Shown in pieces: positions 3,605 through 35,330 of a stretch of DNA of 36,917 nucleotides. A program made the position numbers and the translations under genes. A model generated the notes under the pieces. The model saw nothing but the letters and a program-made list of their open reading frames with translations, did not search any database and was not told the DNA's origin. Origin of the DNA: a virus; IMG/VR virus record IMGVR_UViG_3300013120_000025, positions 1-36,917 of that record, one strand, 5' to 3'. Position 1 is the stretch's first letter. Every line of letters starts with the position of its first letter.

Positions 3605-4175
3605 CCAACTCATTGCAGAACTCAACGAGCGCCGTCTGTAGCTTGTCGTTAAATATGTCATCGCGATAAACGCGAAGAATAAACAATGGCAATCCTGGCG
3701 AGTAGCTGACAAAATCACACCATAATCGCTCGGTTACAAGCAACTGTCCGGCAACTTGCTGAACGTAGGTCGACGGCAACTTGTTCTTGATGAGATAGCC
3801 AACGTGCGTCTTGGCATCCGGGTTCTTAAGCTCAAGCACACCGTCCGAGCCGATAAGCCCATCAGGTGACGCACCCCATCGCCCGCAATCGCTGATGCAG
3901 AAGCCGACTTCATCAACCGAGACTTCCTGCTCCATCGCGTAGATCATGCGAGACAGCGCCTCGCGGTCGTGGCCTTCCTGCATTGCTGCGGACTGGAAGC
4001 CTTTTTTGTAGATACCAGTTATCCGAACAGCAGCACGCTCGTAGAGATATGCTGTGCGTTGCTTGGACGGCTCACCCTTGCTGGTTACGATCTTGCTGAA
4101 CTGTGAGGCGGTGGGGAGGCCACGTCTTGCCTCCCACCATTCCTCGGAGTATTGGTCGTGGCTATGCTGGATCAT
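3570..4175 (-). CDS. YqaJ/lambda-exonuclease-type recombination nuclease
   Basis: This 201-aa protein has the PD-(D/E)xK core of viral alkaline exonucleases. GLPTASQFSKIVTSKGEPS (residues 19-37) is the family opening, GHDREALSR carries Glu72, and WGASPDGLIG (Asp105) is followed by VLELKNP (Glu115, Lys117). Such enzymes degrade the 5' strand of duplex ends to give 3' single strands for a partner annealing protein. The ERF gene lies immediately upstream and overlaps by 14 bp, forming a Red/RecET-like pair. The last ~7 residues arise from a 19-bp tandem duplication at the stop codon. Confidence 0.9.
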   Translation of the reverse strand: MIQHSHDQYSEEWWEARRGLPTASQFSKIVTSKGEPSKQRTAYLYERAAVRITGIYKKGFQSAAMQEGHDREALSRMIYAMEQEVSVDEVGFCISDCGRWGASPDGLIGSDGVLELKNPDAKTHVGYLIKNKLPSTYVQQVAGQLLVTERLWCDFVSYSPGLPLFILRVYRDDIFNDKLQTALVEFCNELEEVCNEIRGMQ

Positions 4176-6243: not shown

Positions 6244-6407
6244 CCCGCCTCACCTCCGAACTCGTGCGGCTGAACTCCCGCCGCTTCCTGTAGCTCCTCG
6301 ATCGCGCAAAGCGTGCGATACAGCTTCGCTCGGTCGCCAATCTCTCGTGCGGATTCGGCCTTCGCCTCAAGCCGGTTGATCTGCTCGCGGATCTCGGGGC
6401 GCGTCAT
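6240..6407 (-). CDS. Hypothetical helical protein (55 aa)
   Basis: This short gene starts at the ATG at 6407 with GAGGCGA upstream and ends in TGA overlapping the next ATG. The product begins MTRPEIREQINRLEAKAESA and is an uninterrupted amphipathic helix or coiled coil for about 45 residues, with a Gly-rich tail. ATGA overlaps at both ends support it. No family is recognised. Confidence 0.55.
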   Translation of the reverse strand: MTRPEIREQINRLEAKAESAREIGDRAKLYRTLCAIEELQEAAGVQPHEFGGEAG

Positions 6408-6697
6408 GATTCGCCTCGGGCTTTGGCGAGGACTTCACCGATAGCTTCGGCCAACGCTGCATTGTGTTTGTTGGCTAAAGCGTACCCTTCTGCGATCAAA
6501 AGCATTTCGTACATCTCTGGCGCGGCGGCGATGAGATGGGCGTTGGCATCTGATTGAGTTTTGAATCCCACCTCGCCAATCCATGCAATCTCTTCCGTTG
6601 CTTCTGTCCCGCAAATGGGCGCAATCACCTGAGCTTCTAGCGAGTCCGGGTAGATCTCTGCTTCCCACGGTCCCTTGGTAAACTTCGCTTCGTTCAT
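6404..6697 (-). CDS. Conserved phage early protein with AAPEMYE motif
   Basis: The start at 6697 follows CAAGGAGGCAAGACG and gives 97 aa. The motif SDANAHLIAAAPEMYEMLL (about residues 48-66) is the hallmark of a very common small phage protein family of unknown function. The N-terminus (FTKGPWEAEIYPDSLEAQVI) also fits that family. It is the first gene behind the early promoter at 6725-6753, so it should be expressed first. Its role is unknown. Confidence 0.8.
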   Translation of the reverse strand: MNEAKFTKGPWEAEIYPDSLEAQVIAPICGTEATEEIAWIGEVGFKTQSDANAHLIAAAPEMYEMLLIAEGYALANKHNAALAEAIGEVLAKARGES

Positions 6698-6724
6698 CGT
6701 CTTGCCTCCTTGTCTTACGTTCGA

Positions 6725-6753
6725 AGCGTACACTATTTCAACAAGGATGTCAA
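6725..6753 (-). promoter_or_regulatory. Early promoter (TTGACA-17-TACGCT)
   Basis: On the minus strand a perfect -35 box TTGACA (6753-6748) is followed by 17 bases and TACGCT (6730-6725). Transcription should begin near 6718, leaving a ~20-base leader with AAGGAGG before the gene at 6697. It lies directly after the terminator at 6758-6790, so it restarts transcription for the early genes. Confidence 0.8.
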
Positions 6754-6757
6754 GCGC

Positions 6758-6790
6758 AAAAGAAACGAGGATGGGCGTGCGAACCCATCC
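6758..6790 (-). terminator. Rho-independent terminator closing the late operon
   Basis: On the minus strand GGATGGG (6790-6784) and CCCATCC (6775-6769) make a 7-bp stem with an 8-base loop. It is followed by a T-rich tract (TCGTTTCTTTT, 6768-6758). It is the only clear stem-plus-T-tract terminator I found and stands between the last late gene and the early promoter. Confidence 0.8.
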
Positions 6791-6810
6791 CCGCAAGCGA
6801 AACTTCAGTC

Positions 6811-6831
6811 CCTCCCTATAGGGAAGGGAGG
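6811..6831. other. Hairpin just after the last late gene
   Basis: CCTCCCT (6811-6817) and AGGGAGG (6825-6831) form a 7-bp stem with a 7-base loop two bases after the stop of the 30-aa peptide. No T-tract follows on the minus strand. It may protect the 3' end of the late mRNA ahead of the real terminator. Confidence 0.5.
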
Positions 6832-6832
6832 C

Positions 6833-6925
6833 TTAAAGCGTTCCAGTTATCAGCAGACCGGCCAGTAGGCCGATCGCCATGCCTATCAGCGCCAGTATGA
6901 TTCCCTCAAGCATCAGCCAGATCAT
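6833..6925 (-). CDS. 30-aa hydrophobic membrane peptide
   Basis: The ATG at 6925 lies one base after the lipoprotein stop codon. It opens a 30-codon frame that begins MIWLMLEGIILALIGMAIG and is almost wholly hydrophobic with small residues, a single membrane span. The ribosome site is poor (CCGGGGTG), but coupling to the upstream stop could serve. It could be a holin-like or antiholin-like peptide at the end of the lysis region. A chance open frame cannot be excluded. Confidence 0.45.
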   Translation of the reverse strand: MIWLMLEGIILALIGMAIGLLAGLLITGTL

Positions 6926-6926
6926 G

Positions 6927-7889
6927 TCAGCACCCCGGATAAGACGTTGTAGGGATTGACCACGACTCAGTAGTTGTTGCGCCCATCTCATCCTCAAACG
7001 TTGCAGTGATTACGGTCATGCCAAACGGAATAGCGTCCTTGGGCCATTCCAGCCCGCACGTTCCTCCACCCGGATAACCTCCACCAACCGACCAATCAGG
7101 AGGCGAGTATGGGCGGTCCGTCCCGACAACAACCGGGCCGATGTTCGCCCAGTAAGCCTTCGCCGGAGGAGCCTTGGTTGCGGTGTTTTGCTTGCACCGA
7201 TAGGCAACGCCATCCTTCCGCACCAGATCTCCAACGACATACGCACGGTTCGCCTTCCACCGAGCGAAGACATTCAAGCTTACATCAATCGGCGCATTCC
7301 AGATAGCAAAGAACATGAAGGCATTCTCAAGCGTTCCTTGCCCCGTCTCGACGTGATACACATCAGGCTTCGGGGGATTCATGCCCTCATAAGGAGGACA
7401 GAACACCGAGTTCTCTTCGCCTTGACCCGTGTTAAATACCGTCACATTAACCAGCGTTACATCACCGCCCTGCGGATCGTAGGTGTCCGGGAATGTTACA
7501 GTGTATTGCTGTCGTGGATGTATCCACCAAAGATCCTCGATGCCGTTTAACCGAGGAAGCCCGATCACAGGCCCAGTGTTCTCCAGCCCAATCCTGGCCG
7601 TCGCCGTCTGGTAATCGCCGTCACTACTTTCCCAGGCCACCTCAACAGTACAAGGCAGACTGTGTATCGTCACTATCAACTTGTTGCTCGTCTGTACATA
7701 GGTCTTGCCCTCAACCGTGAACGCGTATTGTCCATCTCCCACGCCAGAAGCAATCAACATCGCCTCAAGCGGAGGGTATCCGGATTCAGGAGCAGACAGA
7801 GTAAGTACCCCTACACCACTATCCGGAATCAAAGTGCATCCGGTTAGTAGAAAGGAAAGGAATAGGAAAAACAGTAGTTTGCGTTTCAT
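6927..7889 (-). CDS. Predicted lipoprotein with a C-terminal carbohydrate-binding module
   Basis: The ATG at 7889 (GGGAGG seven bases upstream) gives 320 aa with a textbook lipoprotein signal: MKRKLLFFLFLSFLLTGC, with Cys18 as the lipidation site. Residues ~25-200 are beta-rich and resemble Ig/PKD-like folds. About residues 210-255 match the chitin/cellulose-binding CBM5/12 pattern (WKANRAYVVGDLVRKDGVAY, then RCKQNT and a closing YW). The protein should be anchored in the host envelope, facing periplasm or surface. Possible roles are superinfection exclusion, envelope remodelling or binding a surface glycan. None can be chosen from sequence. It is the penultimate late gene. Confidence 0.75.
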   Translation of the reverse strand: MKRKLLFFLFLSFLLTGCTLIPDSGVGVLTLSAPESGYPPLEAMLIASGVGDGQYAFTVEGKTYVQTSNKLIVTIHSLPCTVEVAWESSDGDYQTATARIGLENTGPVIGLPRLNGIEDLWWIHPRQQYTVTFPDTYDPQGGDVTLVNVTVFNTGQGEENSVFCPPYEGMNPPKPDVYHVETGQGTLENAFMFFAIWNAPIDVSLNVFARWKANRAYVVGDLVRKDGVAYRCKQNTATKAPPAKAYWANIGPVVVGTDRPYSPPDWSVGGGYPGGGTCGLEWPKDAIPFGMTVITATFEDEMGATTTESWSIPTTSYPGC

Positions 7890-7905
7890 TTCGCACCTCC
7901 CAGTA

Positions 7906-7935
7906 CGAGAATGCAGCGCAGGGGCAGCTCTCGTT
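7906..7935. other. Hairpin before the lipoprotein gene
   Basis: ACGAGA (7906-7911) pairs with TCTCGT (7930-7935), and inner GC/GC pairs strengthen the stem. On the minus strand it lies in the 92-base gap between the secreted-protein and lipoprotein genes, about 15 bases upstream of the lipoprotein start. No T-tract follows. It could modulate read-through or translation. Confidence 0.45.
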
Positions 7936-7981
7936 CTACCCCCGCGACTGCGCAAGGAGGCCTTCGATGAAGAAGACCGAT

Positions 7982-8491
7982 TTACAACTCGATGTCGAAG
8001 TCAACCCTGATGCCAAGTGTAGGCTTGAAAGTAAGCCAGTTGGTCCCATCCCAAGGGAAGGATGCCCCTCCCCACAACGCCAGCGGCCCCACATACCCCT
8101 CAAGCATAAACCCAGGTTCTCTGGCAATAAGTTTGTATTGCACAGGATATTGCGACTTGTACGTGGCTGTCTGGAATATAGCTAGCGAGCAGCCATAAGC
8201 AAGACTACCCGTTTGGTTGATCGTTGCTCGTTGATTGAAGTATACGTTCGCGTCGAAGTCCAAGTTGAACTTGCGATTTGCGTTTAGGATATTCTTGTCG
8301 AAATACTCAAAGCCCATGTCCATCGTCCATGCGTCGGCAAGAACCCCCTCGACAATCGCACCAACCTCCAGAGTGGGCGCTGCTGTTATCCCCACGTTCT
8401 CGATCTCGAAATATGGATTGATACTTGGTCCTGCAAAAGCGACCGCCGATAGAACTGCTGTCATCAATAGCGATAGTATCCGTCGTTTCAT
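7982..8491 (-). CDS. Secreted beta-rich protein, possible outer-membrane barrel
   Basis: The 169-aa product has a Sec signal peptide (MKRRILSLLMTAVLSAVAFA, cut after AFA). The mature part is a run of alternating strands rich in Phe, Tyr and Trp: INPYFEIENVGI, ANVYFNQRATI, YPVQYKLIAR, WLTFKPTLGI, ending RVDFDIEL. The strands and size (~150 residues) fit a small outer-membrane beta-barrel, but the final residue is Leu rather than the usual Phe. AGGAGG stands five bases before the ATG. In a phage late operon it could alter the host surface. A role in phage exclusion or release is inference. Confidence 0.6.
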   Translation of the reverse strand: MKRRILSLLMTAVLSAVAFAGPSINPYFEIENVGITAAPTLEVGAIVEGVLADAWTMDMGFEYFDKNILNANRKFNLDFDANVYFNQRATINQTGSLAYGCSLAIFQTATYKSQYPVQYKLIAREPGFMLEGYVGPLALWGGASFPWDGTNWLTFKPTLGIRVDFDIEL

Positions 8492-8499
8492 ATTTCCTC

Positions 8500-8766
8500 C
8501 TAGATTCCTACTGTAGGATCTGCCAGCAAACTCTCAACGAAGTCATTCACTTTCCGCCATCCGGCAGCAAAAGCAGCTTGCCAATCCGGGCCGGTTACCT
8601 CGAAGAGTTTCCGCAGATGAGGCCGAACGTCATCGGCCAGTTTGAGGGGATCGACTTTCGCCAATAGCTTGATTGCTAAAGCCGCGCCCTGTTTCCGCAC
8701 AAGGACCACAATCAATTCCAGTCCTTGCTCCTTGATCCAATTCCACGCCGAAGTCAGAATGAACAT
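8500..8766 (-). CDS. Hypothetical protein (88 aa) in the lysis region
   Basis: The 88-aa protein begins MFILTSAWNWIKEQGLELIV, with a moderately hydrophobic N-terminal helix (LELIVVLVRKQGAALAIKLL). The remainder is amphipathic (PHLRKLFEVTGPDWQAAFAA). It could be membrane-associated, and its place after a holin candidate suggests a lysis role. There is no lysozyme, amidase or peptidase motif. AGGGGGCG lies before the ATG, and a promoter (8790-8817) is predicted directly upstream. Confidence 0.5.
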   Translation of the reverse strand: MFILTSAWNWIKEQGLELIVVLVRKQGAALAIKLLAKVDPLKLADDVRPHLRKLFEVTGPDWQAAFAAGWRKVNDFVESLLADPTVGI

Positions 8767-9070: not shown

Positions 9071-10141
9071 TTAGAAACCCGCCGCCTCTAATCCAGGCGT
9101 GGCCGCCATCCCGTAGAATTTCACGTTCACGTAAGACTGCCATCTCGTCACATAGTTTCCGTTCTTGTCTACTTTATAGATGAAGTTGCCGGATGAACCT
9201 GCAAGGTACCGATAAACAACATAGACATTCCCTTCGGCATCGACCGCGCACGCATAGGCATAAGACGACAGCCCCGGCGTGTATTCCCAGATAGTGACCC
9301 CGGTCGAGGGCTCAAACTTGCACACCTTTTTCTCGGACTCGCAGGTGAAATATCCGTAACCGTTATGAGCAATTTCTATGCTGTGAATGGCGTCGCCGCG
9401 CGTCTTCGTCCAATACACATATCCATCCGAGCTGAGTTTGTTATAGTTACTATGAGAATCCCCGCTATAAACCCTCCCGGATGTATCGCACGCCAATGCC
9501 ATAATGTGATATGAGCTTGAGAATATCTTGACGAATGTGCCTGTACTTACAGCCGCGCGCCACACCCCTTTCGATGCAGCAGCAACTCCAACACCGGCAT
9601 ATACAAGACCATTCGCGGCATCAACCGCCAACGCGTACACCGGCGGAGTGAATGTGATGTCCACATTCACAGACCACACATCAGAAGAGGAGGCTCCATT
9701 ATCGCGCAAGCAAATGACACCGCCGCCGAAGTCAGAGTAATACACATAGGTGACTCCAAGTCTGTTCTCTAGCGCAACGGCCAATGATGTCTCTGCCCAT
9801 CCAGCGTGGGACCATGCGAACGACCCATCAGCGTAGAGCTTTACAAGCGTTGTGCCCACACACCAGTAGGATTCCCCATCAGAGTTCACGGCAACAGCAA
9901 GCGCATCTGCTAGATCATAGTGCCAATCCTCTACGCCGGTATCGGTGATTCGGTATAGTTCATCATTGACTGACTCAGAGGTATAGATATAACGGTCGGC
10001 CTCGGCCAACGTGATCTGCTTGATGCCATCAATGTCTACCGCGTTGATTGTGCCGGTCACGATAGCGCCGCCGACCTTGGCATACTCCCCGACAACTTGT
10101 TTGATCGCCCCGCCGATTTTTACGTACTTGCCTTCAGCCAT
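9071..10141 (-). CDS. Beta-propeller-type tail adhesin candidate
   Basis: The 356-aa protein starts with a short repeat-like linker (GKYVKIGGAIKQVVGEYAKV, then GGAI). From residue ~45 it carries six or seven copies of a ~45-residue blade with D-x-x-G-x-x-Y/W motifs (SDGESYWCVGTTLVKLYADG; DTSGRVYSGDSHSNYNKLSS; DAEGNVYVVYRYLAGSSGNF). This is the pattern of NHL/PQQ-like beta-propellers. In a tail operon such a domain would most likely bind a surface ligand. It follows the fibre-like gene at 10143 by one base. No enzymatic motif is seen. Confidence 0.7.
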   Translation of the reverse strand: MAEGKYVKIGGAIKQVVGEYAKVGGAIVTGTINAVDIDGIKQITLAEADRYIYTSESVNDELYRITDTGVEDWHYDLADALAVAVNSDGESYWCVGTTLVKLYADGSFAWSHAGWAETSLAVALENRLGVTYVYYSDFGGGVICLRDNGASSSDVWSVNVDITFTPPVYALAVDAANGLVYAGVGVAAASKGVWRAAVSTGTFVKIFSSSYHIMALACDTSGRVYSGDSHSNYNKLSSDGYVYWTKTRGDAIHSIEIAHNGYGYFTCESEKKVCKFEPSTGVTIWEYTPGLSSYAYACAVDAEGNVYVVYRYLAGSSGNFIYKVDKNGNYVTRWQSYVNVKFYGMAATPGLEAAGF

Positions 10142-22635: not shown

Positions 22636-23772
22636 CTATCCTACTTGTGCGTAGGCACATCGTGGGTCTAGGTAGTTTCCACCAAGACACAAACGCACCC
22701 TGAACATCACGTTGTCAGACTCGAAATCACCGTCGAACGGAGAAATCGGAGCACCGGACAGAGTGACCTTATTGCTCGCCTTCATGCAGATTTTCGGCCC
22801 TTCATGTCCACGCAGATGGTCAAGACCAATAGCGTAGTTGAAAGACGTATCAGCGAACAGATACCACGTAGTAGCAACATCGCCGCTCGCGTCAATCTGA
22901 GCCAACCAAGGATCGACATGGAGCTGAATGCCTAGCTGTGGAACGATGTTCGTGGTAGGGACTGGAATACCGCCACCAGCGCCAACCTCAGTCCACTGCT
23001 TCAGCGCAGACGTAAGAACAGCTCTAGCCTGGAATTCCAACTGAACCGGAACGACTAGATGTAATCCGCGAATGCTCAGAGGGCGTCCGTTAACGTCCGT
23101 CTGTGCAGCCATCAAGCCCATTGTCGTTTCCAGGTTCGCAATAGTAAGCGCCAACGCTCCGAGGTTCGTCACGTTCACACCGTCAACGTCAGCAATCGGA
23201 GCACCGAACAGAAGCACGTCAGGCCCAGTCGCATCAGCAATCAGGCCCGTCACTTCTGCGTGGTTCGTGTTGACTGCCATCTTCGCATAGTCTTCTGCGA
23301 TGTCATTGAACGCGCCCATTCCATCGTTGATCAACGCTTCCCAACTGATGTCGAACTGCTCACCAACCTTACGAACCGACCGCGTGTATCGCGTTGCCGA
23401 GCTAGGCGTAACAAGGTACTCGCCCTTCTCAGTCACATTCCGCAACACACCACGTCCGCCGTTTCGACGATGCCGCGTATGCGTCAGGAAGTTCGGAACC
23501 GTTCCGGTCTTCGTGTATGCCTCATAGTCTGGCTGCACAATGCCATACTGCGCCATCATCTCACGCTCGATAGTCGTACCAAGCAGGTACGGGAAATCGG
23601 TCGTTGTGACAGCTTCCTCCATGACAAGAGCATGTCTGCGTGGGCGCAATCCGGCCTTGTTGTTGATCAAGTCCATACCACGCTCAAGCTGTTGTTCCGT
23701 GAACCGTCGATTGACCGGCTCCCATCCCTTCCAATCTAGTCCTGCTTCTTGAAACGTATTTGCAAGATCCAT
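22636..23772 (-). CDS. Major capsid protein (HK97-fold)
   Basis: I prefer the ATG at 23772 (AGGTGA before it), giving 378 aa. An ATG at 23790 would add six residues. The N-terminal ~85 residues form an arm (TFQEAGLDWKGWEPVNRRFT; then ALVMEEAVTTTDFPYLLGTT). The core includes SVRKVGEQFDISWEALINDG, NVTNLGALALTIANLETTMG and RGLHLVVPVQLEFQARAVL. The end has DNVMFRVRLCLGGNYLDPRC. This pattern, the size and the position downstream of protease/scaffold identify the capsid subunit. Bases 23365-23402 are shared with the gene at 30059. Confidence 0.88.
   Translation of the reverse strand: MDLANTFQEAGLDWKGWEPVNRRFTEQQLERGMDLINNKAGLRPRRHALVMEEAVTTTDFPYLLGTTIEREMMAQYGIVQPDYEAYTKTGTVPNFLTHTRHRRNGGRGVLRNVTEKGEYLVTPSSATRYTRSVRKVGEQFDISWEALINDGMGAFNDIAEDYAKMAVNTNHAEVTGLIADATGPDVLLFGAPIADVDGVNVTNLGALALTIANLETTMGLMAAQTDVNGRPLSIRGLHLVVPVQLEFQARAVLTSALKQWTEVGAGGGIPVPTTNIVPQLGIQLHVDPWLAQIDASGDVATTWYLFADTSFNYAIGLDHLRGHEGPKICMKASNKVTLSGAPISPFDGDFESDNVMFRVRLCLGGNYLDPRCAYAQVG
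23365..23402. repeat. 38-bp repeat, copy in the capsid gene
   Basis: The 38 bases starting AACCTTACGAACCGACCGCG match 30108-30145 exactly. Here they encode SATRYTRSVRKV of the capsid protein. The match begins and ends sharply, with different bases on both flanks. Confidence 0.96.
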
Positions 23773-23807
23773 CTCGTCACCTATCCTCATCCGGGAGAAC
23801 GTAGGTC

Positions 23808-24131
23808 TTATGCACCTGTTGTGCCTTTCCCTTTACGTGTCGCCGCTTTGGGCGTCTCCCTCTTCTTTTTCGCCGCTGCTGCTTTCGCTCGTGCTGACCT
23901 TTTCTTCCGCTCATCCTCCCTGTCCTTCTCTTTCAAGGCTGTAGCATTCTCCTCATCCACGCCGATCTCATTGAGCGTAGCTTCAAGCACAATCTGCTGC
24001 GCTTCCATCTGCGCAACGTCGCCGTCAATCCGCTCAATCTCGATCTGATGCTCGCGGCGGGAATAGGCCAACTGGCCTAGACCCGCTCTCAGAGCATTCA
24101 GCCTATGGACAAGCGTCTCCTTAGCAGACAT
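23808..24131 (-). CDS. Coiled-coil protein with Lys/Arg/Ala-rich tail
   Basis: The 107-aa protein is a coiled coil for residues ~5-75 (AKETLVHRLNALRAGLGQLA; MEAQQIVLEATLNEIGVDEE). It then has a histone-like tail of Lys, Arg and Ala (RSARAKAAAAKKKRETPKAA). The tail could bind packaged DNA or nucleic acid. The gene lies between the decoration and capsid genes, so it is probably a capsid-associated or assembly protein. The start at 24131 follows the upstream stop by one base, with no strong ribosome site. Function is not known. Confidence 0.55.
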   Translation of the reverse strand: MSAKETLVHRLNALRAGLGQLAYSRREHQIEIERIDGDVAQMEAQQIVLEATLNEIGVDEENATALKEKDREDERKKRSARAKAAAAKKKRETPKAATRKGKGTTGA

Positions 24132-24132
24132 T

Positions 24133-25386
24133 CTAGGCCAAGCTCAAGAATGCTTCATCGGCATTTGCTGCAAATTCGCCCAGCGCCGCCGCTGCTTGTG
24201 TCATGCCATCTCGGCTAATGCAGCCGTTGGCCCGTAGCTGTTGAGTATCCTGACCGCCAGCCCCACCATTGAGTTTCATCACGCAAGCGTAGAACTCATT
24301 TTCACAGGCAACTGTGTCGGTTGAGAACTCAACGCCGCCCTCGAAGTTCATGCCGTTGGCCTTGAAACGATCGCCGATATTCGCACAGTCGATATAGACC
24401 AGGCCTTCGATGTTGTTGCCTCCGAGTCCTCTCCCGTGCATGTAGATCTTGATCAAGGAATCGTCATCAGCATGGTTCGTGACCAACGAGTAGTCGGTGT
24501 CGGTATCGTTGCTGAACCCGCAATCGCGGAACGTGACAATGAGCTTCTTGCTCGCCGTCATATTCGTGTTGTCGATTCGGATTCCATCAACATTCTCCGC
24601 GCCACTCGAAATCGTGAGATTCGCAAAGAACGCCAGATAGTTGTTCGCCCCGATAGCTACGCTCGGCTTGACAAGAATCGCCTCAGCACCCACGGTGCAG
24701 TCGATGATCGTCGATTCGTAATCGGGCGTAAGTCCGGTCACAAGAACATCTGTCACGCCTGTCGGGAAGGCCAGCGATGCGGCGGAAGTGTAAGTTCCAG
24801 GCATCAGCATAATCTTCTTCTTGGCATCCGTAACCGCTGCGAACGCTGTCGCAAGGGTCAGATACGGGAAGAAGAACGAGCCATCACCGTCATCGTCACC
24901 ATCAACCGAAACCCAGATGTAACTATCGTTGGAATATCCTAGTGCTTCCCAGGTAGGATCTTGATGGACCTTGACCGCCAATACAGCAGCAGTCCCCGAC
25001 GCATCTAGCGTGCCTAACGCAGTCCCGAATGGAATCTGTGTCTCAGCGCTTTCGATCTTGCTGAGAACACAGGTCGTGGTATTGATGTAGATTCGATCGC
25101 CGCGTGAGATAGCGGATGTGCCGCCATCATTCGAGGCAACTACATTCAGCCACCAAAGCCCCTCAGTATCGACCGCAATCAGATCTGTTGCAGCCGCTGC
25201 GCCGGACATTGCCACGCCGACGATGTTGCCAACCACCACGGGATCTTTCCCGTCAACGAATCCGTCCGCATGAGTTGGGTGAGTAATCAGCGACTCTTCA
25301 AAAGTCAGTACCCGCCCTTCTCCGCCAGAACTTAGCTCAGTCCCAGCAGATTGACTAGTGTTGTCATAGATGTCGTATGTAGGCAT
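24133..25386 (-). CDS. Capsid decoration protein (DUF2190-like) fused to a beta-helix domain
   Basis: Residues ~1-145 match the DUF2190 capsid-stabilising pattern: LTFEESLITHPTHADGFVDG, VVVGNIVGVAMSGAAAATDL, LIAVDTEGLWWLNVVASNDG, then SRGDRIYINTTTC and PFGTALG. From residue ~155, IWVSVDGDDDGDGSFFFPYL and LMPGTYTSAASLAFPTG mark the start of a pectate-lyase-like right-handed beta-helix, continuing through rungs such as YLAFFANLTISSGAENVDGI. DUF2190 proteins are normally ~110 aa, so the extra ~260 residues are unusual. GGGGGTAGAG precedes the ATG. It should coat the capsid and display the beta-helix outward, possibly as a glycan-binding or enzymatic domain. Confidence 0.75.
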   Translation of the reverse strand: MPTYDIYDNTSQSAGTELSSGGEGRVLTFEESLITHPTHADGFVDGKDPVVVGNIVGVAMSGAAAATDLIAVDTEGLWWLNVVASNDGGTSAISRGDRIYINTTTCVLSKIESAETQIPFGTALGTLDASGTAAVLAVKVHQDPTWEALGYSNDSYIWVSVDGDDDGDGSFFFPYLTLATAFAAVTDAKKKIMLMPGTYTSAASLAFPTGVTDVLVTGLTPDYESTIIDCTVGAEAILVKPSVAIGANNYLAFFANLTISSGAENVDGIRIDNTNMTASKKLIVTFRDCGFSNDTDTDYSLVTNHADDDSLIKIYMHGRGLGGNNIEGLVYIDCANIGDRFKANGMNFEGGVEFSTDTVACENEFYACVMKLNGGAGGQDTQQLRANGCISRDGMTQAAAALGEFAANADEAFLSLA

Positions 25387-25397
25387 CTCTACCCCCT

Positions 25398-26459
25398 CTA
25401 GCTGTAGAAGAGTTCAGCCATTCGCTTGCACTCTTCGTCCGTTCCTTTTCTCTCGGCAAAGTATGCCGCCGCTTTCCGGGCTACACGCGCTTCGTGCATC
25501 TCTGCCGTGTCTTCCGATCCTCCACTCTCGCCCATGCCCTTAATTCCTGGCGCTACTTTAGGTCCAAGGCTTTCGATGTAATCTGTCTCAACCTTGATAC
25601 CGTCTTCGATGAGCGTGGTCAGCGCCTCTTTATCGAGCTTGCCTTCCTTCATCGGAGCGGACTTGGTGAGTGTTTCAACCAATCGCGTCCGCGTGACTTC
25701 AGGCAACTCCTCATTCTTGCTGACCGCTTCAACTATGATGTCACGCGCATCACGCAAGGCTAATGCTTCTGCCAGCCGCGCATTCTCGGTCGTCAATGTC
25801 TCATTAGCCTCGGTCAAGGTCGTAACCTGGCCCTCAGCCTCGGTCAACTTCTCTTGTGCTTCTTTCAGTTCCATCGGTTCCCCCTCTCCTTTGGGTTCGT
25901 CCAACCATTCCATGAATCGTGCCTCTTCCGAACGTCCATCGCTTTCGACGAAAGCAGCCGCCTCCATGAACTCATTCACTCTCTCGTCTGCTGTCGCCGT
26001 CGCTGCTTCATACAGCGGCACCATCTTTCCGCCACGTCCCGCCACGGTCACAAGGTCATACCCCGCACCCGGATTGAACTTTTCAGCGACTTTCGTTTGC
26101 TTTCCGCCGATAGATTCCGTTGTGGCTTTCCCGCCCGCTCTGAGCGAGACAGCTGGTCCCAGCTCTTCGACAAAATCTCGCCAATGCTTCGCCACTCGGA
26201 ATTCGCTATACATGCCCGGACCCACTGGCCCGTTCTTGTCGTAGGTAGGTGTGCCGATGATAGGGCCGACAAGATCCCTAAGCGATCTCTCGGGCCGGTC
26301 CTTTCGTTCCTTCAATCCAGGATGATCGACGTACACCTGTCCCCCGTCGAACGCATGAACATCACGGGCAAGCTGTTCCTCTTTGTAGTAGGCCGATGAT
26401 CCCTGGCCAGGACTGATCACCCGCACCCGCGCTATTCCGTCCTCGTTGATGAATTTCAT
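25398..26459 (-). CDS. Prohead serine protease fused to scaffold
   Basis: The ATG at 26459 overlaps the upstream stop (ATGA) and gives 353 aa. Residues ~1-165 form the protease: VISPGQGSSAYYKEEQLARD, then QVYVDHPG with likely catalytic His46 and AVSLRAGGKA with likely Ser105. Residues ~195-260 are a coiled coil (ELKEAQEKLTEAEGQVTTLT; ENARLAEALALRDARDI), as in scaffold domains. The tail is basic/acidic mixed (RKAAAYFAERKGTDEECKRM). During head assembly it would organise capsid subunits and then cleave itself and the scaffold. The arrangement, protease then capsid, is standard. Confidence 0.8.
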   Translation of the reverse strand: MKFINEDGIARVRVISPGQGSSAYYKEEQLARDVHAFDGGQVYVDHPGLKERKDRPERSLRDLVGPIIGTPTYDKNGPVGPGMYSEFRVAKHWRDFVEELGPAVSLRAGGKATTESIGGKQTKVAEKFNPGAGYDLVTVAGRGGKMVPLYEAATATADERVNEFMEAAAFVESDGRSEEARFMEWLDEPKGEGEPMELKEAQEKLTEAEGQVTTLTEANETLTTENARLAEALALRDARDIIVEAVSKNEELPEVTRTRLVETLTKSAPMKEGKLDKEALTTLIEDGIKVETDYIESLGPKVAPGIKGMGESGGSEDTAEMHEARVARKAAAYFAERKGTDEECKRMAELFYS

Positions 26460-26845
26460 TCTCCCTCCCACGGGATAAGCTGCCCCGCCTGTTCGACGAA
26501 TGACGCCGCGACTGGTTTACCAGCTTCGGTGTTCGTTGTCGTCGGGTAAGTCGTCACCTTCTCCACCTCAACCGCCCCGCTCAAAGTCACCTTGCCGTCT
26601 ACACCAACGGTATAGAGCGCCTTGAAGTATTTCGTCGGATTGCCATCTCCGCCTGTCTCATAGATGACAAAATCATCGAACAGCTCCACGACGTAAGAAT
26701 ACGCATCGCCCGATGTCAACTGTCTGACAGCGTTCCCGACATCCTCGTTCAGTTTCGTGTAGCTCTTCGCCTCTACCAGCCACGCAGTCGCCGTCTTGTC
26801 GTCTTCGTCCAACGCCTCGCGCAGCGCCTCTTTCAACGAATTCAC
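26456..26845 (-). CDS. Head-region structural protein (129 aa, GTG start)
   Basis: I place the start at the GTG at 26845. It stands one base after the MuF stop with AAGGGAGG six bases upstream. The longer frame to 26866 overlaps MuF. The product begins NSLKEALREALDEDDKTATA. Its core has SYVVELFDDFVIYETGGDGN, KYFKALYTVGVDGKVTLSGA and VEVEKVTTY, a pattern that recurs just upstream of the protease in Mu-like/MuF phages. It is probably a head-assembly or minor head protein. The exact job is unknown. Confidence 0.65.
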   Translation of the reverse strand: MNSLKEALREALDEDDKTATAWLVEAKSYTKLNEDVGNAVRQLTSGDAYSYVVELFDDFVIYETGGDGNPTKYFKALYTVGVDGKVTLSGAVEVEKVTTYPTTTNTEAGKPVAASFVEQAGQLIPWEGE

Positions 26846-26846
26846 G

Positions 26847-27635
26847 TCAACCCTCCCTTGATACACGTCTCAAAACAGAACACCGACAGCCCGGAAAGCG
26901 AGGATACGTCTGATCGCCGCTTGGGAAATCTTCATCGTACTGAATCCAACCAGCATCCGAGTTCTCCTGGCATCCATCGCTCACGTTATTGTCGCCTACC
27001 GTCTGCCATTTCTTCTCAGTCCGAATCCCCGTCGCCTCGATCTCATCAATCAGCGTCGTCTCACCGTGTGCATACCCCACTGCGTTCTCGTTGATCGCTA
27101 CAAGATGAGCCCTTGACTGGATGTGCGCCTGTGGCTTCCCCACAGCGAACTCGCCAAACTGCTTCGTAATCTGCCGCGCTACCTCATCGTAGCTGGCCCC
27201 CTTCTCAAGGCCACGAGTCACCATGTTCCCGATGCGCTTCTTGGTCGTATCGTTAACATCCGCAACATCCTTAGCCGCTTGAACCTTCGCCCACTTCACA
27301 GCTTCCGGTTGCTTCAATTCGAACGCCGCTTGCATCCCGACTTCCTCGGCCATTGCCGTGTATCCTTGACTCACAGCAGGGACCAATCCAGCTTGGAAGA
27401 TCTCCTCGCCGTTCATCACCGTCACCTTGAAGACATCGTCTAAGATGCTGTCGATGTCGCTAGTCGCGGACTCGGCAAACCATTTCTTCATCCTCGGTAA
27501 CCGCTTCGCCACCTCTTTGCCCTGTCGCCTGAACCACGCCCCCACTGCTTTCTCCATGCGATCTGTGTCTCGCTTCTTCTGCAACACAGAAACGGCCTCC
27601 ACGAGAGAGGCCGTGCATTTGGATACGCGGGTCAA
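26847..27635 (-). CDS. MuF-like minor head protein
   Basis: The 262-aa reading starts at a TTG at 27635. An ATG at 27557 (from MEKAVGAWFRRQGKEV) is an alternative. The C-terminal half carries the MuF signature: IQSRAHLVAINENAVGYAHG, KKWQTVGDNNVSDGCQENSD and FPRFPGCRCSVLRR-like end (YPRFPGCRCSVLRR). The N-terminal half is helical (AMAEEVGMQAAFELKQPEAV; KRIGNMVTRGLEKGASYDEV). MuF proteins sit inside the head near the portal and are ejected or guide assembly. No toxin domain is fused. It lies two genes after the portal. Confidence 0.85.
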   Translation of the reverse strand: MTRVSKCTASLVEAVSVLQKKRDTDRMEKAVGAWFRRQGKEVAKRLPRMKKWFAESATSDIDSILDDVFKVTVMNGEEIFQAGLVPAVSQGYTAMAEEVGMQAAFELKQPEAVKWAKVQAAKDVADVNDTTKKRIGNMVTRGLEKGASYDEVARQITKQFGEFAVGKPQAHIQSRAHLVAINENAVGYAHGETTLIDEIEATGIRTEKKWQTVGDNNVSDGCQENSDAGWIQYDEDFPSGDQTYPRFPGCRCSVLRRVSREG

Positions 27636-27975: not shown

Positions 27976-28331
27976 GATGGCTCCATTGCTAGGATGAATG
28001 CGCGGGTGATGGCGCGCGGGGCAGATAGATCACCGGGACAATCGCCCGATCGTTCTCCACACTCTCGATCTACCAACACCATTCGCGCCCAAATGTCGTC
28101 TTTGCCGCGTGCGCCCGGGAAATAGACTGCGTAGTCCACGCCCCTCTCGATCAACTCCCACGCCACCGCGATGTTGTTCGGGTAGTCGGGGATTGCTGAT
28201 GTGGATTCCAATCCAGGAGGAATGCCACCCGCGCCTATATCGTTGTAAAAACACATCGTCCATCCCAACAATTCAGCGGCCTTGATCCGCAATTCCTCAT
28301 CCGTCATCGCCATCACTTCGTCTCTGGTCAT
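27972..28331 (-). CDS. Phage ABA-sandwich domain protein
   Basis: The 119-aa product contains the Phage_ABA_S pattern (PF18066). A helix, DEELRIKAAELLGW, leads to IPDYPNNIAVAWELIERGVD and then AITRAFILAMEPS at the end. This small fold (alpha/beta/alpha sandwich) is found across phages with no known function. It overlaps the portal stop and the next start by four bases each. Its GAGGCGGA ribosome site is the portal gene's last codons. Confidence 0.7.
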   Translation of the reverse strand: MTRDEVMAMTDEELRIKAAELLGWTMCFYNDIGAGGIPPGLESTSAIPDYPNNIAVAWELIERGVDYAVYFPGARGKDDIWARMVLVDRECGERSGDCPGDLSAPRAITRAFILAMEPS

Positions 28332-29992
28332 TCCGCCTCCTTGCTCTTCACCGCTTCGATGAACGCCCCGGCAAGCCCCGTCACCACTTCGCTGATAGGA
28401 ATCTCGCGGGCTTCGCTCATCGCTTCAATCGCTTGCTGCAGATCCTGCACCGCGCCAGCTACGGCGACGGCTTCCGGCTCCTCGCCTTCGGGGAATAACT
28501 TCTCTATCACCTCTTCAATGGACGTTTCACCAAGCACCCTCAGCAATCGCTCGGTCGTGTACTTGGCGTCGATTGTCCCAGCAAACGGACTGCCATTCAA
28601 CGTAGCAGATGCCACGATAGCATCAACCTGGGCCTTCTGATCGTCTTCAACCAACTTGGGAAAGTCCACGTTGACGGTAGTATCAATCGGCTTTCCTCTT
28701 AGGTCGGGATTCTCGTTCTCGGTATCGAAAACGAATGTCTCCTCTTCCCAGGCATCAGGCTCCCACTCGCCGGATAGTGTGCCTTTCACATTCGGATCAT
28801 CGCTTGTGTATCCAACCTCAGCAACGGATCGAATCACGTACTCGCAGATGCCCTCGATGACCGTCTCCCACAATAGCTGTCTCAGGGAGAAAGCCAGCTC
28901 AGTCGGTCGATTCAACGAACGCGCGGTTGCTAGGGTGCCCACAGATACGTCGCCGTAGAACGTCTCAGGCAATCCCGTGGCCGCGCAAACCATGAGTAAC
29001 AACCGCCGTCCGTCTTCTGCCGACGTCGTTGCGCCCGCTGTACGCAACGGCAGCATCTTTGTAGCGTCATCAGTAATAGCAACCCCGGCTGTTGCCGGTG
29101 ATGGCTGATATTGGCCGCTTGAGATCTTCGAGTCCAGCTTGTTCTTGACCGCAAGCCGACTAGCCGATCCTGCCTTCTTCGTAATCTGCCAAGCGAACCG
29201 AGCATAGGATCGAACAATCGTCGCCCAATTCTGCAGGAACTTGTTGTAAGCCTGCGCCCAATCCTGCGCGGAATAGATTTCAGAAAGTCCGAACTTCTGA
29301 TTTAGGACACGGTTGACAGCAACGTGATAAACTGGACTCTCCCAGTGGACCGTCTTGCCGTTGTATGTCGGCTTCTGATTCGCTGGCCGATATTCCCAGT
29401 CGGGATAATATTCTGTGAACATCTTCCCCGTGGCCACGAAGCGCCCGGATGAATCGCGCTTCTGAGTCCATCGGCGCTCATAGAACCACACCTCGTTCCG
29501 GTCTTCTGGGTTCGTTATCGTATCCCAGATCTCATCGAAGACGATGGTGCTCACCCTCACCTGTCCCTCATTGTTACGGAACAACGCAAAGAACAGGTTG
29601 CCGTCGATGTTCGCATCCTTCTCTAGCTTCGCCAACTGAATGACGGACGAGAACACTTTCTTATTCTTGCGGTCGTTAACGAACGTCTGCACCACTTCAT
29701 CGACAAGCGGGTGAGCGGCCTTGATGGTCACGCCTTGCCCAAAGACGTAGTGTGCCTGCGTATCAACGGCGCGGCCAATCAGTGGGTTCTTCTCGTAGAA
29801 CAGGAACGAGTTCTTGCAGATCTTGCGTAGTCCATCACGGGTAAACTCACGCTCGTCAGCGCCGGATAGCTTGTTCCACCCGACATCTTCAAGCGCAAGC
29901 TCTAGCTCGGTGATTGCCTCTGAGTAGTTGTCTCGCATCACGCGGAGTTCTTCACTCAACGATGCGACAGTCGGTTCGGCGTGTTCGGTCAT
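28328..29992 (-). CDS. Portal protein
   Basis: The 554-aa protein has typical portal features: EKNPLIGRAVDTQAHYVFGQ and GVTIKAA (residues ~68-95) near the wing, an EIWDTITNPEDRNEVWFYER strand, and SPVYHVAVNRVLNQKFGLSE with LPETFYGDVSVGTLATARSL, the common portal motif. The C-terminus (~480-554) is helical and acidic. Portals form the dodecameric ring through which DNA enters and leaves. GGAGATCTT precedes the ATG. A predicted promoter lies just upstream, and the terminase and two small genes precede it. Confidence 0.9.
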   Translation of the reverse strand: MTEHAEPTVASLSEELRVMRDNYSEAITELELALEDVGWNKLSGADEREFTRDGLRKICKNSFLFYEKNPLIGRAVDTQAHYVFGQGVTIKAAHPLVDEVVQTFVNDRKNKKVFSSVIQLAKLEKDANIDGNLFFALFRNNEGQVRVSTIVFDEIWDTITNPEDRNEVWFYERRWTQKRDSSGRFVATGKMFTEYYPDWEYRPANQKPTYNGKTVHWESPVYHVAVNRVLNQKFGLSEIYSAQDWAQAYNKFLQNWATIVRSYARFAWQITKKAGSASRLAVKNKLDSKISSGQYQPSPATAGVAITDDATKMLPLRTAGATTSAEDGRRLLLMVCAATGLPETFYGDVSVGTLATARSLNRPTELAFSLRQLLWETVIEGICEYVIRSVAEVGYTSDDPNVKGTLSGEWEPDAWEEETFVFDTENENPDLRGKPIDTTVNVDFPKLVEDDQKAQVDAIVASATLNGSPFAGTIDAKYTTERLLRVLGETSIEEVIEKLFPEGEEPEAVAVAGAVQDLQQAIEAMSEAREIPISEVVTGLAGAFIEAVKSKEAE

Positions 29993-32667: not shown

Positions 32668-32879
32668 TTGCACTCCCTTATCGCCGCAACACACATCGCG
32701 GCAACTTGGATCAGTTCCTTTCGTCCATCTTCGTCGCGCTTGACAAGTTCCCAATACTCGTCAAGCTCTTCCAGTATAACAGCATACGCCTCATGCTGGC
32801 TGTGAAACGCTGGGAACTTCTTCCGGGCGCTCTGAATCTCCGCTTCGATCTGCTGGTAGATTGTCACACTGGCCCCCAT
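32637..32879 (-). CDS. MazG-like nucleotide pyrophosphohydrolase
   Basis: This 80-aa protein has the MazG-like layout in a single short domain: EIQSARKKFPAFHSQHEAYA, then VILEELDEYWELVKRDEDG with the E-E-x-x-E metal motif, and ELIQVAAMCVAAIRE. Such enzymes hydrolyse nucleoside triphosphates to monophosphates. Phage copies are thought to adjust alarmones or dNTP pools. The start is uncertain: ATG at 32879 or GTG at 32867. Either way the gene overlaps the PAPS-reductase-like gene out of frame by 77-89 bp. Confidence 0.75.
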   Translation of the reverse strand: MGASVTIYQQIEAEIQSARKKFPAFHSQHEAYAVILEELDEYWELVKRDEDGRKELIQVAAMCVAAIRECKCQANQKPAS

Positions 32880-34119
32880 CCGTTTCCGAAATCTGGTTTG
32901 GCGCGAATAGATCCATCCTCCACGCTTCCCGCCGCCTTTTCATCAAGGCCAGATACTTTTGATACGCTTCGCTTTTGTGCTGTGAAAAGCCCAGCCCTTT
33001 GCTCCAATAGTCGTTCCTCAGCAGTGACTTGCAAACTCTTCTCCATGACGGAACCTTCCTTTTCGCTTCTAGCGCATAGTCTGCTTCGTCGGGGATCCCT
33101 TCAGGATAGCCGCGCTCCATCCACCATCTGTTGAATAGTATGATCTTGTTTTCGTAGTGTTCCTTAGTCTTCGGCGGCATAGAAGACACGAGTAACTTAG
33201 AAAAGCTCTCCCAGGTATGTCCGGGCGGCTTGGTTATCTTCCGGTAGCCGTTGATATTGCCCCACTCCTGAACATACATTGCCCCACCATTAGCTCCGTT
33301 TACTCGCGACACCACACGCGCCCACGTTTCTGGCTCTATGATGTGGAATAGCCACAGGCCGCGTCGCTGATCGTCTCCGTAGGGCTGGCAAATCCTCATT
33401 TGGTGTGGCGTCAGCCCTGCTTTGTTCATGTAGTCGTATAGCTCGTTGTATGGCTTGTCTGGATTCTTGTAATGGTATACCCAGATGTCCGATGTCTTCC
33501 AATCGTAGACCGGATAGATATTGTACACTTTGTCGATTACTCGCGTTGTCCACTGCCTGCCATCTAAAGCCTCTTTCGTTCTACTCGCAATCGTCCGAAA
33601 CCTGTTGAGACTTTCATCAGATCGTATACCGACGAAGCAAGCACACCGCTCGCCATTAGCATACCACGCCCCGAATTCGGGGACAAACTCTTCAAACTCC
33701 ATCCCGGAATGAAAGAAAGGGAACGAATCATTCCTAGATATAGCCTCTCTCGGCATCTCGCGTATCCAAGCATCCTCCCTGTCTTTATCCCAGCACTTCC
33801 AGAACGCTTCGTATACGCTCACAGCATTGCGAAGATGAATCGGCAAGGCGACCCAGAAAGGCTTTGTGTTGTCGGCATATAATTCATAGCACAGCCTGAT
33901 ATGGTCTATCGTTAGCTTGTACTGGCCCTCAAGATCAATAAACAACACGCCGACCTCTTGCTCTCTCTTAATCGCTTCATCCATCACAAGGTGCAACATA
34001 ACCGTGCTGTCTTTACCTCCACTGAAGCTGACGTACACTCTCTCAAAATTATCGAAAGTCCATGAGATCCGTTCGCGAGCAGCCGCGAGGACGTTTATGC
34101 CTAGCTTCGTTTTTGGCAT
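32791..34119 (-). CDS. PAPS-reductase-like ATP pyrophosphatase (DUF3440/IbrA-type)
   Basis: The 442-aa protein has the PP-loop VYVSFSGGKDSTVMLHLV (SGGKDST, residues 33-39) of adenylating enzymes. WVALPIHLRNAVSVYEAFWK, ACFVGIRSDESLNRF and VYPVYDWKTSDIWVY-like segments (NIYPVYDWKTSDIWVYHYK) follow. The C-terminal half (YENKIILFNRWWMERGYPEG, DYWSKGLGFSQHKSEAYQKY) fits DUF3440 proteins such as YbdN and IbrA. It follows the ParB-like gene and a 138-aa gene in one overlapping run. Its substrate is unknown. The last ~30 residues overlap the MazG gene. GGAGGGGAA precedes the ATG. Confidence 0.85.
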   Translation of the reverse strand: MPKTKLGINVLAAARERISWTFDNFERVYVSFSGGKDSTVMLHLVMDEAIKREQEVGVLFIDLEGQYKLTIDHIRLCYELYADNTKPFWVALPIHLRNAVSVYEAFWKCWDKDREDAWIREMPREAISRNDSFPFFHSGMEFEEFVPEFGAWYANGERCACFVGIRSDESLNRFRTIASRTKEALDGRQWTTRVIDKVYNIYPVYDWKTSDIWVYHYKNPDKPYNELYDYMNKAGLTPHQMRICQPYGDDQRRGLWLFHIIEPETWARVVSRVNGANGGAMYVQEWGNINGYRKITKPPGHTWESFSKLLVSSMPPKTKEHYENKIILFNRWWMERGYPEGIPDEADYALEAKRKVPSWRRVCKSLLRNDYWSKGLGFSQHKSEAYQKYLALMKRRREAWRMDLFAPNQISETDGGQCDNLPADRSGDSERPEEVPSVSQPA

Positions 34120-34517
34120 TTCCCCTCCAATAACGGCGACTGTTCTTGCCTCGCATTATGTTCTTGCTCCCATTTCAAAATAGCTTCGTCGGCTTTCGCG
34201 TTAGCTTTGTCCTGTTGTTCTTCTGACAAGAAGCCCCACGCCCATCTAGTTATATCTTCCGGACAATCCGTGGCAAGGCAACAAGCGGCGTGACCAATCC
34301 ATGCTTGCCTATTGATGCTTGAACAAGTCAAGTTCTGCTCGCAGGATATAGGCCATTCTTCTATAACTTTCAACATCCACTCCCCGTATAGCTCCGCATC
34401 CCCTGTGAACTGAATAGCCGCTTCCAATAGCTCTTCGCGCTTGCTGCCGTGGACATTTCGCCACATTCCGTATTTATGCTCTTCCCACTCGCTATAATGG
34501 TGGTAGATCTGTTTCAT
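34101..34517 (-). CDS. Conserved cassette protein (138 aa) between ParB-like and PAPS-reductase-like genes
   Basis: The protein is mainly helical with conserved-looking aromatic residues: MKQIYHHYSEWEEHKYGMWR, LYGEWMLKVIEEWPISCEQN, SINRQAWIGHAACCLATDCP, then EDITRWAWGFLSEEQQDKAN. Five Cys lie between about residues 79 and 105, so metal or cofactor binding is possible. I recall similar small proteins beside ParB/PAPS pairs in other phages, but I cannot name a family or function. It overlaps ParB by four bases and the PAPS gene by 19, so all three are likely translated together. Confidence 0.7.
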   Translation of the reverse strand: MKQIYHHYSEWEEHKYGMWRNVHGSKREELLEAAIQFTGDAELYGEWMLKVIEEWPISCEQNLTCSSINRQAWIGHAACCLATDCPEDITRWAWGFLSEEQQDKANAKADEAILKWEQEHNARQEQSPLLEGKCQKRS

Positions 34518-35212
34518 GCTGTGTCTCCAATCGCCAACGAGTCGTCCATATTAATAACTGATACATCCGCTTCCCACGCCTCTGTGAATTCTTGGTCTGC
34601 GAACATCTCTGCAAGGCCACTTATTTGGGCAAGCCTCAATACTTCGTCTGGGTCCATTCCCAACTCGCGTCCAATCTTTTTATCTGACCAATTGCGGCGC
34701 TTGAGTTCAACGACAATCTCTGACATTGAATCAATGCGGTGTTTCCCCCTGGCCCTGTTATGGCGAATCGTTGCCGCTATTCTGTCTCCACGATCTTGTC
34801 GATCAACGTTGATGACTGACAGCGGTAAGTACCCTTGGATTCGCGCTTGCACGAGAAGGCTTTCTCTCCCCACTCGGTTACGGTGGAATCCGTCTACTAC
34901 TTCGTAAGAATCTCCGCGCGTCCAAGAAACAATCGGCTGCGTATAGCCGTCTTCCTGGATGGAGTGTTCAAGAAGCTTCATTTCAGGAGGGGCTACCTGG
35001 TTTGGGTTATAGTTGTTTGCCTCTATTGAAGCGAATGGAACCCAAAGAACACAATCCACCGGCTCCTTAGAGAATGGCCCCGCTTCATGCAACATCTCAC
35101 GAACATCATTAAGAACTGATACTTGCTCTTCAAAGTCCATACCCTTGATGGCCTCACACAGTGCTTCCGCCTGCCCGCGAATTCCATCTATCTGTGTGGT
35201 TGTCTCATTCAT
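34514..35212 (-). CDS. ParB-like nuclease-domain protein (IbrB/YbdM-type)
   Basis: The ATG at 35212 (AAGGGGTGATGTA before it) gives 232 aa. The upstream in-frame ATG at 35302 is excluded because it overlaps the -10 box of the promoter. Residues ~60-130 are the ParB/sulfiredoxin-like domain: PPEMKLLEHSIQEDGYTQPI, YEVVDGFHRNRVGRESLL with the DGxHR box, and ATIRHNRARGKHRIDSMSEI. A helix-turn-helix-like region follows (SDKKIGRELGMDPDEVLRLA). In E. coli related ParB-like and PAPS-like proteins (IbrB/IbrA) are encoded as a pair and act together. Confidence 0.82.
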   Translation of the reverse strand: MNETTTQIDGIRGQAEALCEAIKGMDFEEQVSVLNDVREMLHEAGPFSKEPVDCVLWVPFASIEANNYNPNQVAPPEMKLLEHSIQEDGYTQPIVSWTRGDSYEVVDGFHRNRVGRESLLVQARIQGYLPLSVINVDRQDRGDRIAATIRHNRARGKHRIDSMSEIVVELKRRNWSDKKIGRELGMDPDEVLRLAQISGLAEMFADQEFTEAWEADVSVINMDDSLAIGDTA

Positions 35213-35300
35213 TACATCACCCCTTTGAGTAGGTTGCGGTCGGCCCGTCCAGCTCAAAGACAGACAACGAATTGCCCCTGAAAAGGCCTCCCGCGATTGC

Positions 35301-35330
35301 ATTATACATTCAACCGCTGATGCCCGTCAA
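35301..35330 (-). promoter_or_regulatory. Strong promoter for the ParB-terminase operon (TTGACG-18-TATAAT)
   Basis: On the minus strand TTGACG (35330-35325) is followed by 18 bases and a perfect TATAAT (35306-35301). Transcription should begin near 35294, leaving an ~80-base leader before the ParB start. It is the best candidate for the main late or middle promoter. Confidence 0.78.

Follow-up and report, generated by a model that had tools for sequence, protein, structure and literature searches.

The DNA analysed here, called the window below, is a 36,917-nucleotide stretch of viral origin (IMG/VR record IMGVR_UViG_3300013120_000025), and all window features described lie on its minus strand. 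An open reading frame with an ATG start at 24133-25386 encodes a 417-residue protein that combines a capsid cement domain (residues ~1-145) with a right-handed beta-helix (from ~153 to 417). An earlier note had described this protein as a DUF2190-like head joined to ~260 residues of beta-helix, and the description was borne out, since both Pfam models scored above their cut-offs and both folds agreed in an AlphaFold model. The N-domain (residues 1-145; 24952-25386), a putative cement or decoration platform, matched PF09956 Phage_cement_2, formerly DUF2190, over residues 33-135 (E 2.6e-10, 41 bits, curated cut-off 24), the PHROG 'head decoration' family phrog_122 over residues 40-133 (E 6e-6), and solved capsid decoration chains in Foldseek. 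The C-domain (residues 156-417 plus stop; 24133-24921) matched PF07602 DUF1565 over residues 161-290 (E 9.4e-5, 22.3 bits, curated cut-off 20.3). Between them lies a low-confidence linker (residues 146-155; 24922-24951), delimited by pLDDT and by tail replacement after an AVKVH motif; it is the position at which C-terminal domains switch among relatives. Purifying selection acts on each of the two domains, with a dN/dS of about 0.06-0.23 in those pairs whose dS is measurable, and the decoration gene is the single cement homologue within the window.

The gene is embedded in a head cassette. A portal gene (28328-29992; phrog_10963, E 8.6e-78) and a Mu F-like head morphogenesis gene (26847-27635; PF04233, E 2.7e-12) lie upstream, followed by a head maturation protease/scaffold gene (25398-26471; phrog_15531, E 4.7e-23) directly before the decoration gene, then a 107-residue ORF (23808-24131) and the major capsid protein (MCP) gene (22636-23790; Phage_capsid_4, E 3.5e-28; Mu-like gpT, E 3.9e-7). 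The gap from the protease/scaffold ORF to the decoration ORF is 11 nt, and the segment 25387-25400, as read from the sequence, holds the protease stop codon and a Shine-Dalgarno-like GAGGGGG just 5' of the decoration ATG. A search with the N-domain alone returned 61 loci, and the protease was upstream in 56 of the 57 testable for its position (median gap 3 nt) and the MCP downstream in all 46 testable for it, whatever the tail. Placement in the head cassette next to the MCP is typical of N-domain relatives, and the earlier note's remark that a beta-helix is oddly placed here holds, the gene being found in the head cassette and outside the tail cassette.

Several other features of the window were recorded. 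The 107-residue ORF, charged and helical-looking, is confined to the closest relatives (43-61% identical), had no confident family by family or profile matching, and diverges faster than its neighbours, being about 45% identical where the MCP is 73-87% identical. Past the head genes, on their terminase side, are a PAPS-reductase-like gene (32791-34119; phrog_2302, E 2.3e-85) and a ParB-like gene (34514-35302; phrog_2159, E 3e-71). Near the tail-gene end, a 356-residue protein (9071-10141) matches phrog_8401, a family of beta-propeller repeats (E 8.7e-19), and is a candidate tail-side binding protein. Scanning for promoters and terminators was uninformative.

Structure prediction gave a pLDDT of 37.8 from a 4-sequence alignment and a mean pLDDT of 89.4 from a 53-row alignment whose rows came solely from proteins of the window and the fetched loci. 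In the latter model, pLDDT was at least about 90 across most of residues 160-400 and below 50 at residues 147-151, between the domains; the first ~30 residues form an arm of lower confidence. The pTM of 0.66 is moderate, and the model leaves the angle between the N- and C-domains loose. VIA-align superposed the modelled C-domain (145-417) on right-handed beta-helices, reaching a Z of 19.1 (rmsd 3.1, 229 residues), the best scores being those of Geobacillus virus E2 ORF18 and the Pam1 tailspike (both 19.1) and the Fri1 tailspike, gp49 (18.2), followed by PL6 alginate lyases (about 18) and pectin methylesterases (about 17). The modelled N-domain matched capsid decoration chains of phiCD508 in Foldseek (best E 2.8e-4, TMt 0.65-0.69) and DUF2190 proteins in BFVD (TMt 0.78, rmsd 2.6), with weaker matches to capsid chains of Pam3, T1, HFTV1, TW1 and Adjutor. 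A phmmer search of the PDB gave no match. The predicted folds are a cement fold and a beta-helix; the earlier note had proposed structure prediction as a check, with a model lacking a beta-helix counting against it, and the model contains the beta-helix.

We considered whether the fusion was an assembly chimera or frameshift artefact and rejected this, because independent IMG/VR contigs carry the identical layout in proteins ~74% identical over their full length (L001, L002 and L005-L009, with L005/L008 and L007/L009 listed jointly). A more distant set with the full architecture is 40-47% identical (L010, L011, L013, L014, L015, L039 and L073). In L031 (3284-4464) the beta-helix fusion is split across two frames overlapping at 3889-3913, through either a genuine frameshift or an error in sequencing. 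All relatives are metagenomic. With the window, L086, L084 and L080 proteins as queries, tblastn found no homologue among 50,697 phage records, so that no isolate supplies a phenotype, and a scan of genome contigs found just three N-domain relatives, all in MAGs and bearing other tails. The open-access literature yielded no report of a capsid decoration protein that bears a beta-helix, including under DUF2190 or pectate lyase combined with decoration protein, and the PF09956 and PF07602 pair may be recorded in databases without comment. The beta-helices described for Peru-2 and 7-7-1 are tail-borne (7-7-1: PMC12796354).

The N-domain carries many different tails. Single-linkage clustering of the C-terminal sequence after the AVKVH motif (blastp E <1e-3) gave ten sequence-distinct groups on one N-domain, nine besides the beta-helix: REYRY (24 members), beta-helix (11 plus the window), GLDHV (6), TGLEY (6), DHAAF (2), ETGAG (2) and four singletons. 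This is a count by sequence comparison, with structure predicted for the beta-helix tail only, and there may in reality be fewer than ten tail folds, because REYRY and TGLEY (best hhalign probability 18%) and DHAAF and ETGAG (8%), which we did not join, could be distantly related. By hhalign the beta-helix had no relation to the other groups (probability <1%), an absence that is weak evidence. These natural additions to the cement domain are about 110-290 residues long, and some cement copies are tailless. Cement genes occur in twos or threes at nine loci; the additional ones are short and frequently end in an aromatic run (for example, WMDTGVWWWWFWYWEYQQPK), and one has a display domain. Short paralogues with such ends were recorded at L026:7488-7958, L035:5370-5825, L040:182-673, L042:7483-7974, L060:4434-4919, L074:1995-2471 and L076:7968-8948, mostly directly upstream of the copy with the display domain; the L035 paralogue is downstream of the MCP, and L076 has three consecutive cement genes. 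The tail of the cement protein at L062:3707-4426 weakly matches Phage_depo_C, the C-terminal beta-sandwich of depolymerases (E 3.9e-4, under the cut-off).

The beta-helix, in turn, is found on other mounts. With an alignment of diverse C-domains as query, beta-helices were recovered beyond the range of the N-domain profile, and PF07602 was also above its cut-off, at 24-37 bits, in L003, L039, L071, L079, L080, L083, L084 and L086. In L079 (E 3.1e-12) and L086 (E 1.9e-13) the beta-helix sits on a PF09956 domain too diverged for the N-domain profile, 3' of a phrog_4523 protease-MCP fusion. In L071 and L084 it has an S49-type protease on one side and a phrog_1005 MCP on the other, on a mount that weakly matches PF09956 (L071) or is unmatched (L084); near the phrog_1005 MCP of L083 and the Phage_capsid_4 MCP of L080 the mount is scant or absent. 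In L003 a 75% identical C-domain follows a Sec-like signal peptide, after a P22-type coat protein. The beta-helix gene was no more than about 710 bases from the MCP gene in all seven of these loci (L003, L071, L079, L080, L083, L084 and L086), which, regardless of the cement domain, links the module to head cassettes. Two successive L003 genes directly after the coat gene (6350-7252 and 7303-8706) encode Sec-like signal peptides (MKKIFEIGLIALVVVAMGIPVMAGWGD and MKKTSKIFEIVLVAIIVTMLSGPVIAGWGD); the first bears the beta-helix and the second ends in Phage_depo_C (PF25692, E 9.5e-6). Judged by these signals, both proteins are possibly exported, either as virion components or as secreted proteins.

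We compared tail type with capsid descent on an MCP tree of 43 rows, in which 30 of the 40 inner branches were well supported. Tail type, scored as 8 states, required at least 17 changes, compared to a minimum of 7 and an average of 23 for shuffled labels. Tail type thus follows capsid descent in part and has frequently been exchanged. Sister capsids carry different tails in the window and L024 (MCP 87% identical) and in L010 and L064 (83%), as do L002 and L037, where the MCP is 96% and the N-domain only 60% identical; L018 and L048 (MCP 92%) differ in having or lacking a tail. L022 and L024 have proteases without a single difference (pS 0.00 across 369 codons), and their following gene is ~99% identical, whereas DNA identity in the decoration gene drops to 56-93%, with pS reaching 0.37 for the N-domain and 0.60 for the tail. 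The protease and MCP segments of L013 and L014 are 94-100% identical and the N-domain drops to 73%; one segment of a 136-residue gene also drops, to 77%. Because synonymous sites have diverged as well, this pattern implies that diverged decoration alleles were imported by recombination, rather than produced by fast point mutation. Fast exchange could instead mean that the domain is dispensable, a reading disfavoured by the purifying selection on it.

The fusion, its two folds as predicted, its synteny beside the MCP, the diversity of tails and their replacement between near-identical phages are what the analysis shows, and the explanation that on balance we hold probable is that of a two-part capsid decoration protein, with a cement socket and an outward beta-helix binding module, whose C-domains are exchanged by recombination. 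The cement domain would attach to the exterior of the expanded capsid and would most likely do so in the manner of phiCD508 gp48, in trimers that occupy three-fold and quasi-three-fold sites; the T=7 head of phiCD508 carries 420 copies of gp48, arranged as trimers (PMC11948020). By analogy we infer presence in the virion, an outer-surface location and trimerization, and a copy number on the head is likewise presumed. The short flexible linker would point the beta-helix outward, where it would bind, most likely to a host glycan or another surface structure, and many weak head attachments could bring or hold the tail near its receptor. The cement domain would serve as a general socket into which related phages plug other C-terminal domains or none, swapped by recombination.

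The arguments for ligand binding are the fold class of the beta-helix and its swapping, and display-domain swaps between near-identical phages fit the pattern that a recognition surface would give. The positions invariant among 19 diverse C-domains (V159, G163, D165, G169, P174, T177, A181, K190, G197, Y199, P208, G218, P241, G268, K281, Y315, R340, G350 and G378) are mostly Gly, Pro or Ala, hydrophobic or in turns; they look structural and single out no binding face. No catalytic constellation was recognizable among them, a result that concerns residues shared by the family and leaves room for a member-specific site, and a catalytic site common to the whole beta-helix family is unlikely from these sequences. 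We therefore favour binding over cleavage. Of the adhesin or depolymerase that the earlier note had suggested as a possible aid in sticking to mucus, biofilm or particles, the adhesin agrees with swapping between near-identical capsids, and the depolymerase finds no support in the 19 members, among whose invariant residues no catalytic constellation was recognizable.

Four other explanations were weighed against this model. If the beta-helix bound nothing external and instead stiffened or thickened the shell through contacts between adjacent decoration trimers, the cement fold of the N-domain and the structural character of the conserved C-domain residues would be as found; however, a part that had to fit a fixed lattice would not be expected to come in ten versions, to be missing from some copies and to be replaced often where the MCPs are near-identical, and the same beta-helix occurs beside several MCP families. 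We regard this role as unlikely. A smaller chance is given to a capsid-borne depolymerase that cleaves host or matrix polysaccharide, in the manner of tailspike lyases or the deacetylase-like domain proposed for HFTV1 turrets. The nearest structures, which are tailspikes, alginate lyases and pectin methylesterases, speak for such an enzyme, but catalysis does not follow from fold alone, and the 19 members again lack a conserved catalytic constellation.

The recombinational replacement between near-identical phages would also be expected of a surface antigen, so the exposed domain might vary to dodge recognition (by decoy vesicles or surface proteins, or in grazing) and not for receptor binding. 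We consider this improbable, although nothing specific speaks against it beyond the beta-helix being a binding or enzymatic fold in other phage proteins. Least probable, with a very slight chance, is that the C-domain is a folding aid or scaffold cut off by the neighbouring head protease before maturation: the protease gene is only 3 nt away (median) in relatives and the linker is flexible, but a stand-alone beta-helix protein occurs where the cement mount is missing (L080 and L003), and the closest fold matches are display parts of mature virions.

Returning to the socket-and-binding-module model, we put forward more tentatively a broader idea, which may well be wrong, that in a large group of uncultured tailed phages the capsid is a second, fast-evolving recognition surface, on which a standard cement socket beside the MCP accepts about ten interchangeable domains, tailspike-type beta-helices among them, and recombination between otherwise near-identical phages changes what the head binds. 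One socket with ten domain groups is spread over dozens of environmental phages, and domain turnover outpaces the underlying capsid; capsid decoration with binding domains was previously known in a few cultured phages and was mostly Ig-like. Should the domains bind hosts or surroundings, then selection for recognition of host or habitat acts on the head too, and predicting hosts solely from tail fibres misses this. In addition, the cement domain offers a natural scaffold for displaying large inserts.

Known systems resemble the window protein in parts. PF09956/phrog_122 decoration proteins, such as phiCD508 gp48 and the TW1 capsid stabilising protein, are like its N-domain in family, fold and MCP adjacency, but the matched solved chains are about 110-170 residues long with no extra domain, whereas the window protein adds a 266-residue beta-helix. 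Its C-domain passes the cut-off of DUF1565 (PF07602), a family not tied to capsids. Hoc of T4, pb10 of T5, gp17 of N4 and phi29 gp8.5 share with it a capsid anchor and an exposed domain thought to bind cell surfaces; Hoc, pb10, gp12 and phi29 gp8.5 bind surfaces through carbohydrates and are known or thought to aid attachment (PMC7602432). Proteins of the Hoc and pb10 type have Ig-like or other folds, unlike the beta-helix of the window C-domain, and the folds given in a 2020 review are beta-tulip, beta-tadpole, OB, Ig-like and knotted alpha, with no right-handed beta-helix display domain among them (PMC7602432). The capsid fibres of 7-7-1 are used on flagella (PMC12796354). HFTV1 turrets, with proposed glycan-binding and deacetylase-like domains, are likewise capsid-mounted parts proposed to bind glycans ahead of tail engagement; they differ in belonging to a haloarchaeal virus and in being built from distinct proteins for base and head, which bear a galactose-binding-like plus a deacetylase-like domain (PMC12494034). 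The tailspikes of Pam1, Geobacillus virus E2 (ORF18) and Fri1 (gp49) share the right-handed beta-helix of the window C-domain (Z 18-19) but are mounted on the tail, whereas the mount in the window protein is a capsid cement domain and its gene lies between those of the head protease and the MCP, which sets it apart from tailspikes.
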